The position numbers and the translations under genes are program-made. The notes below the pieces were generated by a model. The model did not search any database. It had not been told where the DNA came from and saw only the letters and a list, made by a program, of their open reading frames with translations. From Pseudomonadota bacterium (GTDB lineage Bacteria; Pseudomonadota; Gammaproteobacteria; Burkholderiales; Rhodocyclaceae): a stretch of DNA of 64,000 nt. The DNA is taken from contig JAFEDI010000080.1 of NCBI GenBank assembly GCA_018241725.1, positions 62,001 to 126,000 on the forward strand. The letters are read 5' to 3'. Of this stretch, positions 51,532 through 57,204 are shown in pieces (within the stretch, counting starts at the first letter, position 1; each line of letters starts with the position of its first letter).

Positions 51532-51540
51532 TTATCCACA
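51532..51540 (+). promoter_or_regulatory. DnaA box, perfect (module 1)
   Basis: TTATCCACA equals the consensus DnaA box. An AAATCCACA variant follows at 51585. The inverted partner found in the other modules is degraded here. Confidence 0.7.
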
Positions 51541-51689
51541 GGGTTGACCACGTGTGGTGGGGAAAAGATGGGGCAAATCCTCACAAATCCACAGCCCTAT
51601 TCTGGGGCGCGCGTCATGTGCGTTGCACAAAATTGAAGCAAACGATAAAAATGCTGCTAGATCAGTCATCTAGAGCCACCTTTCACAAC

Positions 51690-51724
51690 TTACCCACAGG
51701 GTTGACCACGCTGGACGGGGATAA
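51690..51724. promoter_or_regulatory. DnaA box pair (module 2)
   Basis: TTACCCACA at 51690-51698 is followed by an opposed CGGGGATAA at 51716-51724, 17 bases later. The same arrangement recurs in modules 3 and 4. Confidence 0.6.
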
Positions 51725-51884
51725 CACACAGCCTGCGACAGGCTCGCGAACCCGGATGTCCCCAACAAGCTGCCGCTGGAAAGGTCTGCAAACCCCGTCT
51801 CGAATCATTGAAAAAAGCTGCCTAATTTTGTGACAGAAGTAAAAAGCACTTAACTTTCAATAACCTGCTTACACCCCTCACACC

Positions 51885-51919
51885 TTATCCACAGGGTTGA
51901 CCACGACCAGCGGGGATAA
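51885..51919. promoter_or_regulatory. DnaA box pair (module 3)
   Basis: Perfect TTATCCACA at 51885-51893 with opposed CGGGGATAA at 51911-51919, and an AAATCCACA variant at 51936. The start is 353 bp after module 1. Confidence 0.7.
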
Positions 51920-52040
51920 CCCACAGTCTCGGCGAAAATCCACAGGGCTCTCGTTTCCAGCCCCAAAGGTGCATTGCACAAAATTGAGGCAAACACTAAA
52001 AGCGCTGCTCAATCAGTAATCTAAGCCTGCGTTTCACAAC

Positions 52041-52075
52041 TTACCCACAGGGTTGACCACGGCTGACGGGGATAA
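52041..52075. promoter_or_regulatory. DnaA box pair (module 4)
   Basis: TTACCCACA at 52041-52049 with opposed CGGGGATAA at 52067-52075, ending four bases before the codA stop. Confidence 0.6.
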
Positions 52076-52078
52076 AGC

Positions 52079-53356
52079 TCAGGAGCGATGGCTGAAATCC
52101 ACACGGGACGGCCGTCCCGGCAGGTCCAGCGCGGCGACGGCCGCCGGGCTGCGGGCGACGATCCGCCCGGCACGTAGCACCAGGAGACGCGTCGCCCGCA
52201 GACGCAATGCCTCAATGGGATCGGCGGCCTGCAGCAGCACCAGGTCGGCGCGGCAGCCCGGTTCGAGGCCGTAATCGTCCAGGCCCAGGATGCGTGCCGG
52301 CGTCGCCGTCACCGCTGCGAAGCAGGCGCGCATGCCATCCTGGCTGGTCATCTGGGCCACGTGCAGGCCCATCGCCGCCACTTCCAGCATGTCGCCGCTA
52401 CCGAGGCTGTACCACGGATCCATCACGCAATCGTGGCCGAAGGCGACCGGGATGCCGGCCGCGAGCAGTTCCGGCACACGGGTCATGCCGCGGCGCTTCG
52501 GGTAAGTGTCGTGGCGGCCCTGCAGCGTGATGTTGATAAGCGGGTTGGCGACCGCCGCAACACCCGCCTCGGCCATCAGCGGCAGCAGCTTGGACACGTA
52601 ATAGTTGTCCATCGAATGCATGGACGTCAGGTGGGAACCGGTCACCCGCCCCTGCAGGCCGAGACGCTGGGCCTGGAAGGCCAGGCTCTCGATATGGCGC
52701 GACAACGGGTCGTCGGACTCGTCACAATGCATGTCCACCGGCAGGCCGCGTTCGGCGGCCAGTTCGCACAGGATGCGCACCGACTCCGCGCCGTCGACCA
52801 TCGTGCGCTCGAAATGGGGAATGCCGCCGACCACGTCGACGCCCATGTCCAGTGCCCGCTTCAGGTTGTCCAGCGCACCGGGGCTGCGCAACACGCCATC
52901 CTGCGGAAAGGCCACCAGCTGCAGGTCCAGATAGGGCCGCACCTTGTCCTTCACGTACAGCAGGGCTTCAACCGCCAGCAGGCGCGGGTCGCACACATCC
53001 ACGTGGGAGCGGATCGCCAGCAGACCCTTGGCCACCGCCCAGTCGCAATAGGCCAGCGCCCGCTCCACCAGCGCCTCCTGGGTCAGCAGCGGCTTCAACT
53101 CCCCCCACAGGGCGATGCCTTCCAGCAGCGTTCCGGACTGGTTCACCCGCGGCAGGCCGTAGGACAGGGTCGCGTCCATGTGGAAGTGGGCGTCGACGAA
53201 CGGCGGAGTGACGAGTTGGCCGGCCGCGTCGATGACTTCTCCCGCTTCGCCGGCCAGCGCCGTTTCAACAGCGGAAATACGCCCGTCGCGGATGCCGATG
53301 TCCATGCCACGACGCCCATCGGGCAGGTTGCAGTTGCGCAGGATCAGGTCGAACAC
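52079..53356 (-). CDS. codA: Cytosine deaminase (CodA-type amidohydrolase)
   Basis: Metal-dependent amidohydrolase of 425 residues that would turn cytosine into uracil and ammonia, feeding the uracil pathway of the same operon. Metal ligands and catalytic motifs are present: TPPFVDAHFHMD (HxH), RSHVDVCDP, PVDMHCDESDDP, GSHLTSMHSM and AFGHDCVMDPWYSLGSGDML (the catalytic Asp, close to FGHDDVFDPW of E. coli CodA). The GTG start at 53356 lies 13 bp inside the end of the regulator gene. It is last gene of the URC operon. A related activity such as isoguanine or other pyrimidine/triazine deamination is possible. Confidence 0.85.
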   Translation of the reverse strand: MFDLILRNCNLPDGRRGMDIGIRDGRISAVETALAGEAGEVIDAAGQLVTPPFVDAHFHMDATLSYGLPRVNQSGTLLEGIALWGELKPLLTQEALVERALAYCDWAVAKGLLAIRSHVDVCDPRLLAVEALLYVKDKVRPYLDLQLVAFPQDGVLRSPGALDNLKRALDMGVDVVGGIPHFERTMVDGAESVRILCELAAERGLPVDMHCDESDDPLSRHIESLAFQAQRLGLQGRVTGSHLTSMHSMDNYYVSKLLPLMAEAGVAAVANPLINITLQGRHDTYPKRRGMTRVPELLAAGIPVAFGHDCVMDPWYSLGSGDMLEVAAMGLHVAQMTSQDGMRACFAAVTATPARILGLDDYGLEPGCRADLVLLQAADPIEALRLRATRLLVLRAGRIVARSPAAVAALDLPGRPSRVDFSHRS

Positions 53357-54030
53357 GGGAAACTTCCTTCCAAAATAGGGGGCGCGAGACCGCAGCCGCG
53401 CAACACCAGGTTCAGCACATGGGCCGTGGCCCGCCGGTAATCGGCCGGCCCCAGGCTGCGGCGGTTAAGCACTGCGCAGACCTGGGTTTCGAAGTCGGCG
53501 TAGGTCTGGGTCAGTGCCCACAGGCTGATGAACAGATGTACCGGATCCACCGGCGCCAACTTGCCGGCGGCAATCCAGGCTTCGATCACCGCCGCCTTGT
53601 CGGCAACCAGCAGGCGCAATTCATTACGCAGATAGTCGCCGATCTCCGGCGCACCATGCAGCAACTCGTTGGCGAAGACCCGCGACGCGTCCGGGTGCTC
53701 GGCGGTGAGACGCATCTTGGCTTCGATGTAGTGGGCCAGCGCCTCGCGCGGGTCGGCGTCGGCATTGATGCGGTCGGTCTCCGCCAGCCAAAGGCGCAGG
53801 ATGTGCGCCAGCACGGCCCGGTAAACCTCGGCCTTGGTGCCGAAGTAGTAATGCAGATTGGACTTGGGCAGGCCGGCCACGACGGCTATCTCCGCCATCG
53901 TGGCGCCCTGGAAGCCGGCCCGCGCGAAGACTTGCTCGGCGGCCGCAAGGATGGCGGCCTCGTGCTGGCGTCGGATGCGCCCGCCGCGCGCGGGCGTTTC
54001 CACGTCCCCGGGCGGCGGCGCTACCGTCAT
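53344..54030 (-). CDS. rutR: TetR-family regulator, RutR type
   Basis: Repressor/activator of 228 residues starting at an ATG (54030) that overlaps the upp stop. The N-terminal HTH ([59 protein letters not shown]) and the C-terminal domain ([23 protein letters not shown]) match RutR/YcdC. RutR of E. coli senses uracil and binds TTGACCA-N2-TGGTCAA; exactly this motif precedes the operon at 57189-57204, so autoregulated, uracil-responsive control is expected. The frame extends to 54183 inside upp, but that part is shadow. Confidence 0.88.
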
Positions 54031-54659
54031 TTGGTACCGAAGATGCGGTCGCCGGCGTCGCCCAGGCCGGGCACGATATAGCCGTGCTCGTTGAGGTGGC
54101 TGTCCACCGCTGCGGTCGTCACCGGCACGTCCGGGTGGGCCTCCTGCAGCGCGGCCAGGCCTTCCGGCGCAGCCAGCAGGCACACGAACTTGAGACTGGT
54201 CACGCCGGCCTCCTTCAGGCGCGACAGGGCCGCACTGGCCGAATTGCCGGTGGCCAGCATCGGATCGACGACGATCACCAGGCGGTCTTCCACATCATCC
54301 GGCAGCTTGAAGTAGTACTCGATGGCCTCCAGCGTTTCCGGATCCCGGTACAGGCCGATGTGCCCGACCCGCGCGCCGGGCAGCAGGTCGATCATGCCGT
54401 CGAGCATTCCGTTGCCGGCCCGCAGGATGGACACCAGGCACAGCTTCTTGCCGCTGATCACTGGCACCTTGCAGGCCGCCACCGGCGTGGTCACGTCGAT
54501 CAGCTCGGTGGGCAGGTCGCGGGTCACCTCATAGGCCAGCATGGAGGCGATCTCCCGCACCAGGCGGCGGAAGTTGTCGGTGGTGGTCTCGGCGCTGCGC
54601 GCCATGGACAGCTTGTGCTGAAGCAGGGGGTGGTCGATGACGGTAACGGGTGCGCTCAT
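54027..54659 (-). CDS. upp: Uracil phosphoribosyltransferase
   Basis: Makes UMP from uracil and PRPP; 210 residues, the family length. The start ATG at 54659 follows CTGGAGGACTGT. Conserved parts: [62 protein letters not shown], the PRPP loop [18 protein letters not shown] and the uracil end [17 protein letters not shown]. Placed between urc4 and rutR, it most likely supplies the UMP that the URC enzymes degrade (the role of URC6 in yeast) rather than only salvage. Confidence 0.96.
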
Positions 54660-54685
54660 ACAGTCCTCCAGTGCTTGCAGTGGTT

Positions 54686-55930
54686 TCAGAATACAGTACC
54701 GTCGCTGATCAGTTTCACCGGCGGCGCGCCACCGGTGCGGCGTTGGGCGGCAATGCGGCGGCCGGCCGACCAGGTGCCGCCTTCCAGCACGCGGGCCAGC
54801 GGAAAAGCCTCCGGCGTCAGCCCAAGCAGTTCGCGGACGGCGAGCGCGAGCCGGTCGAGGCCGATGACGGTCAGCGCCCGCCATTCGACGATGGGCGGCG
54901 CATCCACCGTCCAGGCATGACGCCAGAAGCGCTCCTCACGCGGACGGATCAACCCGAAGTCGAGCAATAAGCCACCGTTGCGATACTCCGGCAGGCCGGT
55001 CAGTTCGTCCAGCCCGGTGATCGTCAGCCCCGCCGTTTCCAGCGGTTCGAGCAGGGAATAGGTGAGCCACTGGGTCAGCTTGTGGAAAGGCAGCAGGCCG
55101 TCCTCCAGCGCCGGGTGGGCCCAGCAGTCGCCGAGCGGGACGCCCTGCAGCACCACGCGCCCCGGCCACACCGGCCCGAGGGCGCGCAGCAGCGTACCGA
55201 GCACGAAGGACGCGGCGAGCTTGCCGTCGATGGCGTGGGCCAGCAGGTAATCCACCAGAGTGCCGGCACGGGCCGGCGTGCCGAACACCGCCGGCGTTGC
55301 TTCCATCACCGCACCCAGGCGTTGCAGTAGCGCACTTCGCCCGTCCAGCCCGACCAGCGGATTGGCCGGCCCGACCTGGAAGGCTGTGGCCAGTACCTCC
55401 GGCGTCAGGCGCCGCAGGGCAGCCGCATCGCAGCGCAGAGGGCTGGCCGGATCGGCAGACAGCGCGCCACTGGCGAACAAGGCCAGACTGGCCACGCCAA
55501 GCCCTTCGGAGCGGCCCAGTTCCATGCCGCCGGCCACGTCCCGGTAACGCCACTCGGCACCCGCTCCCGCGTCCAGCAGCACGCTGGGAATGACCAGATC
55601 CACCGCCACGCGAGCTCGCTCCAGTCGGTCGCCGTCCAGGCCGTGAGTGCCGGCCAGCACGCCCCAGCGGTCCCGTCCACCGGCCTCGAAGTGGCGCCAG
55701 CGGCTGTGGTAGGGCACGTCCAGATCCGGGTAGTTGAGGCGGATGGTCTGTGCGACGTACTCGGCGCACGGCAGCAATTGCTCCGCATGCCAGGTAAAGA
55801 AGGGCGACAGGTCGGCCTCGACGCGCGCCGTGACGACACGGCAGCGCTCGCGTACCGCCGTCGAGCTCAGCAGCGGCGCTGCCGGGTGGCCGGCAGATAC
55901 CGGCGTGTGCCATCCCGATCCGTGGTTCAT
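54686..55930 (-). CDS. urc4: URC4-like protein (DUF1688), pyrimidine catabolism
   Basis: 414 residues, coupled to the previous gene by an ATGA overlap. Family stretches: [70 protein letters not shown] and [23 protein letters not shown]1688 proteins are homologues of yeast Urc4, required in the URC route of uracil breakdown, where uracil is first made into UMP and then opened. The chemical step of Urc4 is not established. No signal peptide or membrane span, so cytosolic. Confidence 0.88.
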
Positions 55931-57171
55931 GCGTGCAGCCCCCTGCCCTTCGCCACCGCCAGTTCGGCCGCGCTCGGCGGCGCCACCGGCGTGAAGTAGC
56001 CGGCCGCCGTCTTGGCATCCATCTCCACCCGCGCATCGGCGGGAATCAGCTCATCAGGAATCGCCACCTGCTCGACGACCTGGATGCCGGCGGCGGTCAG
56101 CGCCCCATGCTTCATGTTGCTCATCGACGCCCAACGGTCGATACGCGTGATGCCGAGCCAGTGGAAGACGTCCGGCATCAGCTCCTGGAAGCGCATGTCC
56201 TGCACGCCGGCGACGCACTCGGTGCGCTCGAAATAAGTTTCCGCCCGGTCGCCGCCGTACTGGCGCTTGCGGGCGTTATAAACGAGGAACTTGGTCACCT
56301 CGCCGAGGGCGCGGCCCTCCTTGCGGTTGTACACCACCAGGCCGACGCCGCCCCGCTGGGCCATCTCGACGCACACCTCGATGCCGTGGGCAAGATACGG
56401 CCGGCAGGTGCAGATGTCTGAGCCAAACACGTCGGAGCCGTTGCATTCGTCGTGAACCCGACAGGCCACCTGCGTCTCTGGCCGACCAAGCAGGCTCACG
56501 TCGCCGAAGAAATAGAGGGTCATGCCACCGATCGGCGGCAGGAAGACCTTCAGGTCGGGCCGCGTGACGAGCTCCGGGAACATCCCGCCGGTCTGCTCGA
56601 ACAGCGCGCGCCGCAACGCGCTCTCGGTGATGCCGAAGCGCTCCGCCACGCCGGGCAGGTACCACACCGGGTCGATGGCGGCTTTGGTCACGCGCACGTC
56701 GCCGTTGGCTTCGAGGATGTCGCCGTCCGGCACCAGCCGGCCGGCCTCGATGGCATCGCGGAGCTCCGGCATGTTGATGTGGGCGGTAGTCACCGCAATG
56801 GTCGGGCGGATGTCCATGCCCGCCGCGATCTCGGCGGCGAACTCCTGGGCCACCCGGTGCCCCCATGGGTCGAGGGACACGATGCGCCCCGCGTCGGCCC
56901 ACTGGGGATGGGGTCCGATGCCGGTGGCCGGCACGGTGTTGGTGAGGTCCGGCCGGTGGTTGGCCTGCAGGTTGCCGGCCGCCACCGCCAGCGCCCGATA
57001 CACCGAATAGGAACCCGAGTGGGTGCCGATCACGTTGCGCAGCGCCGGTTCGGCCAGGCCCGCCACCAACGGCCCCCGCTCGGCGGCGGTGGCGGCGCCC
57101 CAGCGGATGGTGGATACCGACCGCCCACGGCTGGCACGGGGATGGGAAGTCAGAACGATATGGGACGCCAT
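55927..57171 (-). CDS. urc1: URC1-like protein, GTP cyclohydrolase II family, pyrimidine catabolism
   Basis: 414 residues from the ATG at 57171 with AGGAGCGAAGC upstream; the longer frame to 57291 crosses the operator. The C-terminal half is a RibA-type GTP cyclohydrolase II core: zinc Cys cluster in RVHDECNGSDVFGSDICTCRP, then GVGLVVYNRKEGRALGEVTKF. The N-terminal half (SVSTIRWGAATAAERGPLVAGL, HRPDLTNTVPATGIGP) is specific to URC1. Yeast Urc1 is needed for opening the pyrimidine ring in the URC route; no ribB/DHBP domain or other riboflavin gene is nearby, so riboflavin synthesis is unlikely. First gene of the operon. Confidence 0.9.
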   Translation of the reverse strand: MASHIVLTSHPRASRGRSVSTIRWGAATAAERGPLVAGLAEPALRNVIGTHSGSYSVYRALAVAAGNLQANHRPDLTNTVPATGIGPHPQWADAGRIVSLDPWGHRVAQEFAAEIAAGMDIRPTIAVTTAHINMPELRDAIEAGRLVPDGDILEANGDVRVTKAAIDPVWYLPGVAERFGITESALRRALFEQTGGMFPELVTRPDLKVFLPPIGGMTLYFFGDVSLLGRPETQVACRVHDECNGSDVFGSDICTCRPYLAHGIEVCVEMAQRGGVGLVVYNRKEGRALGEVTKFLVYNARKRQYGGDRAETYFERTECVAGVQDMRFQELMPDVFHWLGITRIDRWASMSNMKHGALTAAGIQVVEQVAIPDELIPADARVEMDAKTAAGYFTPVAPPSAAELAVAKGRGLHA

Positions 57172-57188
57172 GCTTCGCTCCTGAAAAC

Positions 57189-57204
57189 CTGACCATATGG
57201 TCAA
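57189..57204. promoter_or_regulatory. RutR operator upstream of the urc operon
   Basis: CTGACCATATGGTCAA matches the E. coli RutR consensus TTGACCA-N2-TGGTCAA at 13 of 14 defined positions and contains a perfect 14-bp palindrome. It starts 18 bp upstream of the urc1 ATG, where binding would block transcription start or early elongation. The regulator is encoded in the operon. Confidence 0.9.

Follow-up and report, generated by a model that had tools for sequence, protein, structure and literature searches.

A bacterial URC operon with a RutR-type regulator and a predicted QNG1-related N-glycosidase for ring-opened uracil nucleotide

How might a bacterium degrade uracil by way of uridine monophosphate (UMP), and what would the DUF1688 protein URC4 contribute to such a route? 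The question is raised by a compact operon in a 64,000-nucleotide stretch of contig JAFEDI010000080.1 (positions 62,001 to 126,000; hereafter, the window) from assembly GCA_018241725.1, a member of the Rhodocyclaceae whose 5.93-Mb genome holds the window (G000:C130). The operon combines urc1, urc4 and upp with a gene for a RutR-type TetR regulator and with codA, and its type is already known: it is a bacterial URC system. Judged from the genes, their order and their upstream site, it is likely a self-contained operon, probably induced by uracil, whose products convert cytosine and uracil to urea via UMP, with URC4 acting as a glycosidase in the full scheme. DUF1688 (URC4) itself is fairly likely to be a new family of ureido-ribonucleotide N-glycosidases, kin to QNG1 and, at a greater distance, to the HhH DNA glycosylase fold, in which an invariant Lys-Glu pair replaces Lys-Asp and which frees urea and ribose-5-phosphate, the phosphoribosyl group being a recyclable carrier.

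The five genes run on the minus strand in the order urc1-urc4-upp-rutR-codA (window 57171-52079; Table 1), with junctions of -4 bp (urc1/urc4), +26 bp (urc4/upp), -4 bp (upp/rutR) and -13 bp (rutR/codA), a minus sign denoting overlap. Coordinates and family profiles agree on the genes, order, strand and tight spacing that a preliminary description of this DNA had claimed. Specifically, P0001 scores 277 bits against PF12471, 49 bits against PF00925 and 771 bits against NF005536 (cut-off 403); P0002, 469 bits against PF07958 (DUF1688; cut-off 25); P0003, whose gene adjoins urc4, 271 bits against TIGR01091 (cut-off 208); and P0005, 826 bits against the cytosine deaminase profile NF005748. A longer urc1 frame from 57291 is unneeded, as the alignment with the copy of Cupriavidus metallidurans CH34 (82% identical) already begins at the first residue of the protein read from 57171. 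Among the best 80 of 539 confirmed places that we used for comparison, the closest URC4 relatives come from two metagenome-assembled genomes labelled Proteobacteria (95%) and from Zoogloea sp. LCSB751 (93%); by these sequences, the host is Zoogloea-like.

Table 1. Genes and regulatory site of the URC operon (window coordinates).
Feature	Position	Strand	Assignment and support
urc1 (P0001)	55927..57171	-	GTP-cyclohydrolase-II-like, proposed UMP ring-opening enzyme; NF005536, PF12471, PF00925
urc4 (P0002)	54686..55930	-	DUF1688, proposed QNG1-like N-glycosidase on 5-phosphoribosyl-urea; PF07958
upp (P0003)	54027..54659	-	uracil phosphoribosyltransferase; TIGR01091
rutR-type TetR regulator (P0004)	53344..54030	-	PF08362; E. 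coli RutR 3LOC/6Z1B E 1e-43
codA (P0005)	52079..53356	-	cytosine deaminase, GTG start; NF005748; 1R9Y E 2e-108
RutR-type operator TGACCATATGGTCA	57190..57203	.	exact palindrome, 18 bp 5' of urc1 ATG

A lead on the role of URC4 comes from its predicted fold. The AlphaFold 2 model (predicted local distance difference test score 93.3) matches DUF2419/QNG1 over the whole domain, at 14-20% identity to QNG1, and hhalign relates DUF1688 to QNG1 with a probability of 94.7. On these models, the fold relation between the two is near certainty. The residue comparison was built on a URC4 set consisting of P0002 and the proteins of 66 of the 80 loci (14 were omitted against redundancy and truncation) and on a set of 11 QNG1 proteins. 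The latter stem from the phylum of a Mycolicibacterium genome, 13 of whose 346 genomes matched in a QNG1 search, 11 of them above the cut-off; the weak matches L138 and L139 were dropped. The same search matched none of 299 genomes of the host's own phylum and none of 14 control genomes. A Legionella sp. genome gave one match to the Q_salvage profile, which lies at the urc4 coordinates and scores 20.7 bits, below the cut-off of 25.

According to titles in the PDB, DUF2419 variants K199C and D231N were crystallised with queuosine or queuosine-5'-monophosphate. Because these titles name them, we use K199 and D231 as the working residues of QNG1 and take them to be catalytic. In HMMER, hhalign and MAFFT alignments alike, K199 falls on URC4 K284 and D231 on E315, the residue pairs resting on sequence and profile alignments. 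K284 is invariant across the DUF1688 set (67/67), as is the corresponding lysine in QNG1 (11/11), and D268, T311, R351 and W387 are common to all 78 proteins. W387 pairs with QNG1 W302, an active-site residue according to an excerpt of PMC11592518 (here and below, published work is cited from excerpts of the papers). A first placement of QNG1 D298/W302 on DGTVF, in the C-terminal part of URC4, did not hold; the pairing falls on E383/W387 with both hhalign and MAFFT, D312/W316 of L130 having been equated with Sphaerobacter D298/W302 through a constant offset of 14 to K199/D231.

Several observations weigh against equating the two proteins. P0002 has no match to the Q_salvage profile PF10343 at an E-value of 10; 18 of 67 URC4 relatives do match at E <=10, the best at 5e-5. 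Searches of the PDB by phmmer with P0002 and with the URC4 of relative L101 found no QNG1, and none of four PDB hits obtained with HMMER is significant alone. The acidic partner of K284 is Glu in 67/67 DUF1688 proteins, as opposed to Asp in 11/11 QNG1 proteins, and the D298 column, the least sure of the alignment, holds Glu (50) or Gln (17) in DUF1688. In the joint alignment, this column is Asp in 8 and His in 3 of the 11 QNG1 proteins; in the QNG1-only alignment, it is Asp in 11/11. A common fold need not mean a common reaction. URC4 is best described, from these alignments, as a QNG1 homologue with a consistent acidic-residue change and not as a member of the QNG1 family: it differs from QNG1 (DUF2419, PF10343) in the Glu for Asp231, the Glu or Gln for Asp298, the missing Q_salvage match, its length (414 residues, compared with 319-331 in the solved Sphaerobacter-type chains) and its expected substrate, which is ureido where that of QNG1 is a deazapurine. 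The HhH-GPD DNA glycosylases (AGOG, endonuclease III) are not among the URC4 sequence-search matches, and by its context URC4 is not a DNA enzyme.

What reaction would such a protein catalyse? The primary substrate of QNG1 is a nucleoside 5'-monophosphate (PMC12301720). The Lachancea kluyveri model has URC4 break ribosylurea down to urea and describes the preceding steps, by which uracil becomes ribosylurea, as uncharacterised (PMC7530994); a "putative" enzyme that degrades ribosyl-urea is mentioned in a yeast review (PMC8709784). Thus, the placement of URC4 at ribosylurea is already proposed; the excerpts name the reaction of URC4/URG3, ribosylurea to urea, without an enzyme class or active site. 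An N-glycosidase acting on 5-phosphoribosyl-urea fits both the 5'-phosphate substrate of QNG1 and the yeast placement, and we consider it quite likely that URC4 catalyses this glycosidase reaction. The preliminary description had called the chemistry of URC1 and URC4 poorly described; for URC4, the QNG1 fold and residue matches narrow that gap considerably. No paper connecting DUF1688 with QNG1 or with an N-glycosidase was found in the open-access literature, subscription papers and structure-database pages lying outside the search, and the modelled URC4-QNG1 relation and the proposed glycosidase mechanism appear new within that searchable literature.

The same alignments leave some room for a URC pathway as described in which URC4 keeps the QNG1 fold and performs another step on the ring-opened product of UMP, as a lyase, isomerase or amidohydrolase. 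The change from Asp to Glu at D231, the Glu or Gln at D298 and an identity to QNG1 of merely 14-20% would all suit such a change of chemistry, which we nevertheless judge unlikely: Lys284, Asp268, Thr311, Arg351 and Trp387 are common with QNG1 in 67/67 and 11/11 proteins, and the conversion of ribosylurea to urea, where yeast work places URC4, is exactly an N-glycosidase cut (PMC7530994).

The supposed substrate of the glycosidase would be delivered by URC1. Among solved structures, 7EEV and 7EJ3, both deposited under the name GTP cyclohydrolase II, are nearest to it and align with residues 3-412 of the query (E 3e-184). By residue counts on the printed alignment, URC1 C243, C254 and C256 align with C54, C65 and C67 of E. 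coli GTP cyclohydrolase II (2BZ0), and D325 and R327 with D126 and R128; we take the three cysteines of the E. coli enzyme to be its zinc ligands and D126 and R128 to be catalytic. URC1 thus resembles GTP cyclohydrolase II (RibA) in keeping these five positions, whereas it differs in an extra N-terminal PF12471 domain, in its low score to PF00925 and in carrying ASMSNMKH where the E. coli enzyme has the stretch LTNNPKK. If a URC1-type enzyme hydrolysed the UMP ring twice, N1-C2-N3 would stay on the ribose phosphate as urea and C4-C5-C6 would be released as a three-carbon acid.

Taken together, the genes suggest the following scheme. The RutR-type protein would hold the operator upstream of urc1 and release it upon binding uracil, with induction of the operon including rutR. 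CodA would deaminate cytosine to uracil, and Upp would convert uracil and phosphoribosyl pyrophosphate (PRPP) to UMP, whose ring URC1 would open hydrolytically to a three-carbon acid (3-oxopropanoate level) and 5-phosphoribosyl-urea. URC4, with K284/E315 at the positions of QNG1 K199/D231, would cleave the N-glycosidic bond of the latter to give urea and ribose-5-phosphate, and a urease encoded elsewhere in the genome would split the urea. In this way the phosphoribosyl group would be a reusable handle, returned as ribose-5-phosphate. The order of the two URC enzymes could also be reversed, URC4 acting first as a nucleotide N-glycosidase on UMP or another 5'-nucleotide and URC1 on a different intermediate; QNG1 accepts 5'-nucleotides with the base intact (PMC12301720), so that UMP-sized substrates suit the family. 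Cleavage of UMP would, however, merely reverse the reaction of Upp at the cost of PRPP, presumably a futile cycle inside one operon. Moreover, urc4 mutants reportedly accumulate ribosylurea, which agrees with the yeast model (PMC7530994) and speaks against URC4 acting first, and we hold this order to be very improbable.

The rest of the genome is consistent with the proposed breakdown route. The best match to RutA reaches 20 bits (cut-off 498) and the best match to dihydropyrimidinase 90 bits (cut-off 393), so that URC is the sole complete-looking uracil route found, dihydropyrimidine dehydrogenase not having been searched. Hence, of the competing routes that the preliminary description had named as a possible refutation, neither the Rut nor the reductive pathway is represented by these two enzymes above cut-off, the search having covered RutA and dihydropyrimidinase and not dihydropyrimidine dehydrogenase. 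That description had also placed the urea step outside the window, and a candidate for it, a urease alpha subunit (TIGR01792, 967 bits; cut-off 680), does lie elsewhere in the genome (G000:C6), unlinked to the operon. Two uracil/xanthine-type permeases are likewise unlinked. A single upp copy in the genome exceeds the family cut-off, which means that it must serve salvage too. It could accordingly be asked whether the whole operon is one of pyrimidine salvage, CodA and Upp recovering bases to UMP while URC1 and URC4 serve a modified or damaged pyrimidine. URC1 and URC4 are, however, assigned to uracil breakdown in L. kluyveri (PMC7530994, PMC3869809), and the genome lacks a RutA or dihydropyrimidinase above cut-off that could account for breakdown; of the alternatives considered, salvage seems to us the least probable, with hardly any weight. 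The breakdown of cytosine and uracil via UMP, as first put forward for this locus, appears to hold on gene identities, order and operator.

Is the operon controlled by uracil? The palindrome TGACCATATGGTCA upstream of urc1 is the sole exact match within the window. Near-matches occur at chance level both in the window (2 at <=2 mismatches, with 1.72 expected) and genome-wide (14 places at <=1 mismatch, with 15 for a control pattern), so they were dropped as evidence and conservation was used instead. Elsewhere in the genome the palindrome recurs exactly once, at G000:C9:76515, inside a coding-like frame of 407 amino acids that looks transporter-like by eye, and this copy was discarded as a target. 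Conservation was surveyed in the 80 loci, which lean to close relatives, and in 25 loci from an even phylum sample, whose flanks span only 1.5 kb, an absent rutR there being weaker evidence. An operator (<=2 mismatches, <=160 bp 5' of urc1) is present in 23/23 relatives with a linked rutR (21/21 in the best-80 set and 2/2 in the phylum sample) versus 3/77 testable loci without one (3/55 and 0/22, respectively); five further loci (4 + 1), all without rutR, were untestable. Across all 80 loci, such sites occur at a frequency of about 0.011 per 165 bp, with the true sites counted in. TGAC and GTCA are kept in all 23 sites, partly through selection for few mismatches. The evidence for a role of the site is its conservation 5' of urc1 in rutR-bearing relatives, and the RutR-type operator that had been noted upstream of the operon is borne out by its exact core and by this co-occurrence.

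The regulator itself, P0004, scores 170 bits against PF08362 and 194 bits against TIGR03613 RutR. E. coli RutR contacts uracil through W77, Y97, W167, Q171 and Q179' (PMC10891134), which align without gaps with P0004 W81, Y101, W171, Q175 and Q183, and these five residues are identical in 23/23 rutR-linked relatives. Uracil-bound RutR is stabilised in a form unable to bind DNA (PMC10891134), and therefore de-repression by uracil is the likely sense of control here, by analogy with the E. coli protein. A RutR regulon that governs pyrimidine catabolism in Proteobacteria has been published, covering 68 genomes and 13 taxa (PMC5343134). With E. coli RutR and its Rut system, the operon shares a RutR-type regulator, the operator form TGACCA-N2-TGGTCA and the uracil pocket residues; it differs in that the regulator stands with URC genes and not with rutA-G, in that no RutA exceeds the cut-off, and in its score below the NCBI RutR cut-off.

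Some points count against this regulatory interpretation. P0004 lies below the TIGR03613 equivalog cut-off (194 versus 368 bits). Many of the 23 rutR loci are closely related (Zoogloea, Azoarcus), their counts not being independent, and the thresholds of 160 bp and 2 mismatches were chosen after a 300-bp scan, which gives identical loci. Three loci (L055, L065 and L111) carry the operator without a linked rutR; the contig of L065 stops inside urc4, which explains the unseen rutR, and the flanks of L055 and L111 are complete and give no match to rutR. The earlier assignment to RutR consequently stands in part: by its sequence, P0004 is a RutR-type protein with a conserved operator and uracil pocket, and is not RutR by the NCBI equivalog definition.

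Beyond the host, DUF1688 is present in 26 of 398 genomes of the even phylum sample (own genome included), and the other listed genome of the same family in that sample (n=1) lacks it. In the 80 loci, which span Proteobacteria, Cyanobacteria and Mycolicibacterium, urc1 lies near urc4 in 76 and upp in 73; rutR is linked in 21, and codA lies within 12 kb in 31. A frame-independent recount with tblastn returned the same 76, 73, 21 and 31 of 80. The five-gene arrangement urc1-urc4-upp-rutR-codA, together with an exact operator, also occurs in C. metallidurans CH34, at identities of 82% (urc1), 64% (urc4), 71% (upp), 65% (rutR) and 82% (codA). The search for this gene order across relatives, proposed at the outset, also recovered it in loci of Zoogloea, Parazoarcus and Methylibium. 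Clustering of neighbouring genes gave many shadow frames in this high-GC DNA, and Pfam-checked representatives alone were used.

The neighbourhoods vary around this core. In the Azoarcus locus L058, a PnrA-type nucleoside ATP-binding cassette transporter (PF02608, Pfam-checked) stands between rutR and codA, the same binding-protein cluster does so in L052 (Cognatazoarcus) and L064 (Caldimonas), and L060 has a permease cluster there; PnrA/BMP-type transporter genes in urc operons suggest nucleoside uptake as feedstock. A ureidoglycolate-lyase-like gene (PF04115) lies within 10 kb of urc genes at L118:19416-19910 (Cylindrospermum, Pfam-checked) and in four more loci, and its product may handle a ureido intermediate. 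Loci L067-L072 and L075-L078 (Aquabacterium, Leptothrix and other Burkholderiales) hold urc1-urc4-upp and codA without a RutR-type gene, and no operator with <4 mismatches is present; these loci are expected to be under another regulator. In Bosea sp. 117 and Prosthecomicrobium hirschii (L094, L097), upp is divergent from urc1-urc4 and not downstream.

At the other end of the operon, direct repeats occur 3' of codA (window 51532-52106), with 35-bp copies at 51700, 51895 and 52051 and 49-bp copies at 51878 and 52034. Beside them lie DnaA-box-like words at 51532, 51690, 51885 and 52041. Such words (<=1 mismatch) number 7 in the whole window, compared with 3.0 expected, a count reached in 4 of 100 shuffles. 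By sequence, the region could be a cluster of DnaA-binding sites or else an intergenic repeat.

The URC4/URG3 (DUF1688) route was first worked out in yeast and is found in many bacteria and fungi. The operon shares three protein families with yeast URC (URC1, URC4 and URC6 of L. kluyveri; urg1/urg2/urg3 of Schizosaccharomyces pombe, which are clustered and uracil-induced, PMC2174524). Unlike yeast URC, it is a bacterial operon that also encodes a RutR-type regulator of its own as well as a cytosine deaminase, and the urea enzyme found here is the unlinked urease, in contrast to the urea amidolyase of the yeast model (PMC7530994). The operon and its RutR-type switch offer a genetically simple bacterial model, C. 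metallidurans CH34 included. The placement of URC4 in the QNG1 fold makes its chemistry assayable, with two named residues, K284 and E315, to mutate. Ribose phosphate as a removable handle suggests why the pathway passes through UMP and, if the proposed glycosidase is true, a fold of the repair and salvage type would have been recruited for nitrogen scavenging.

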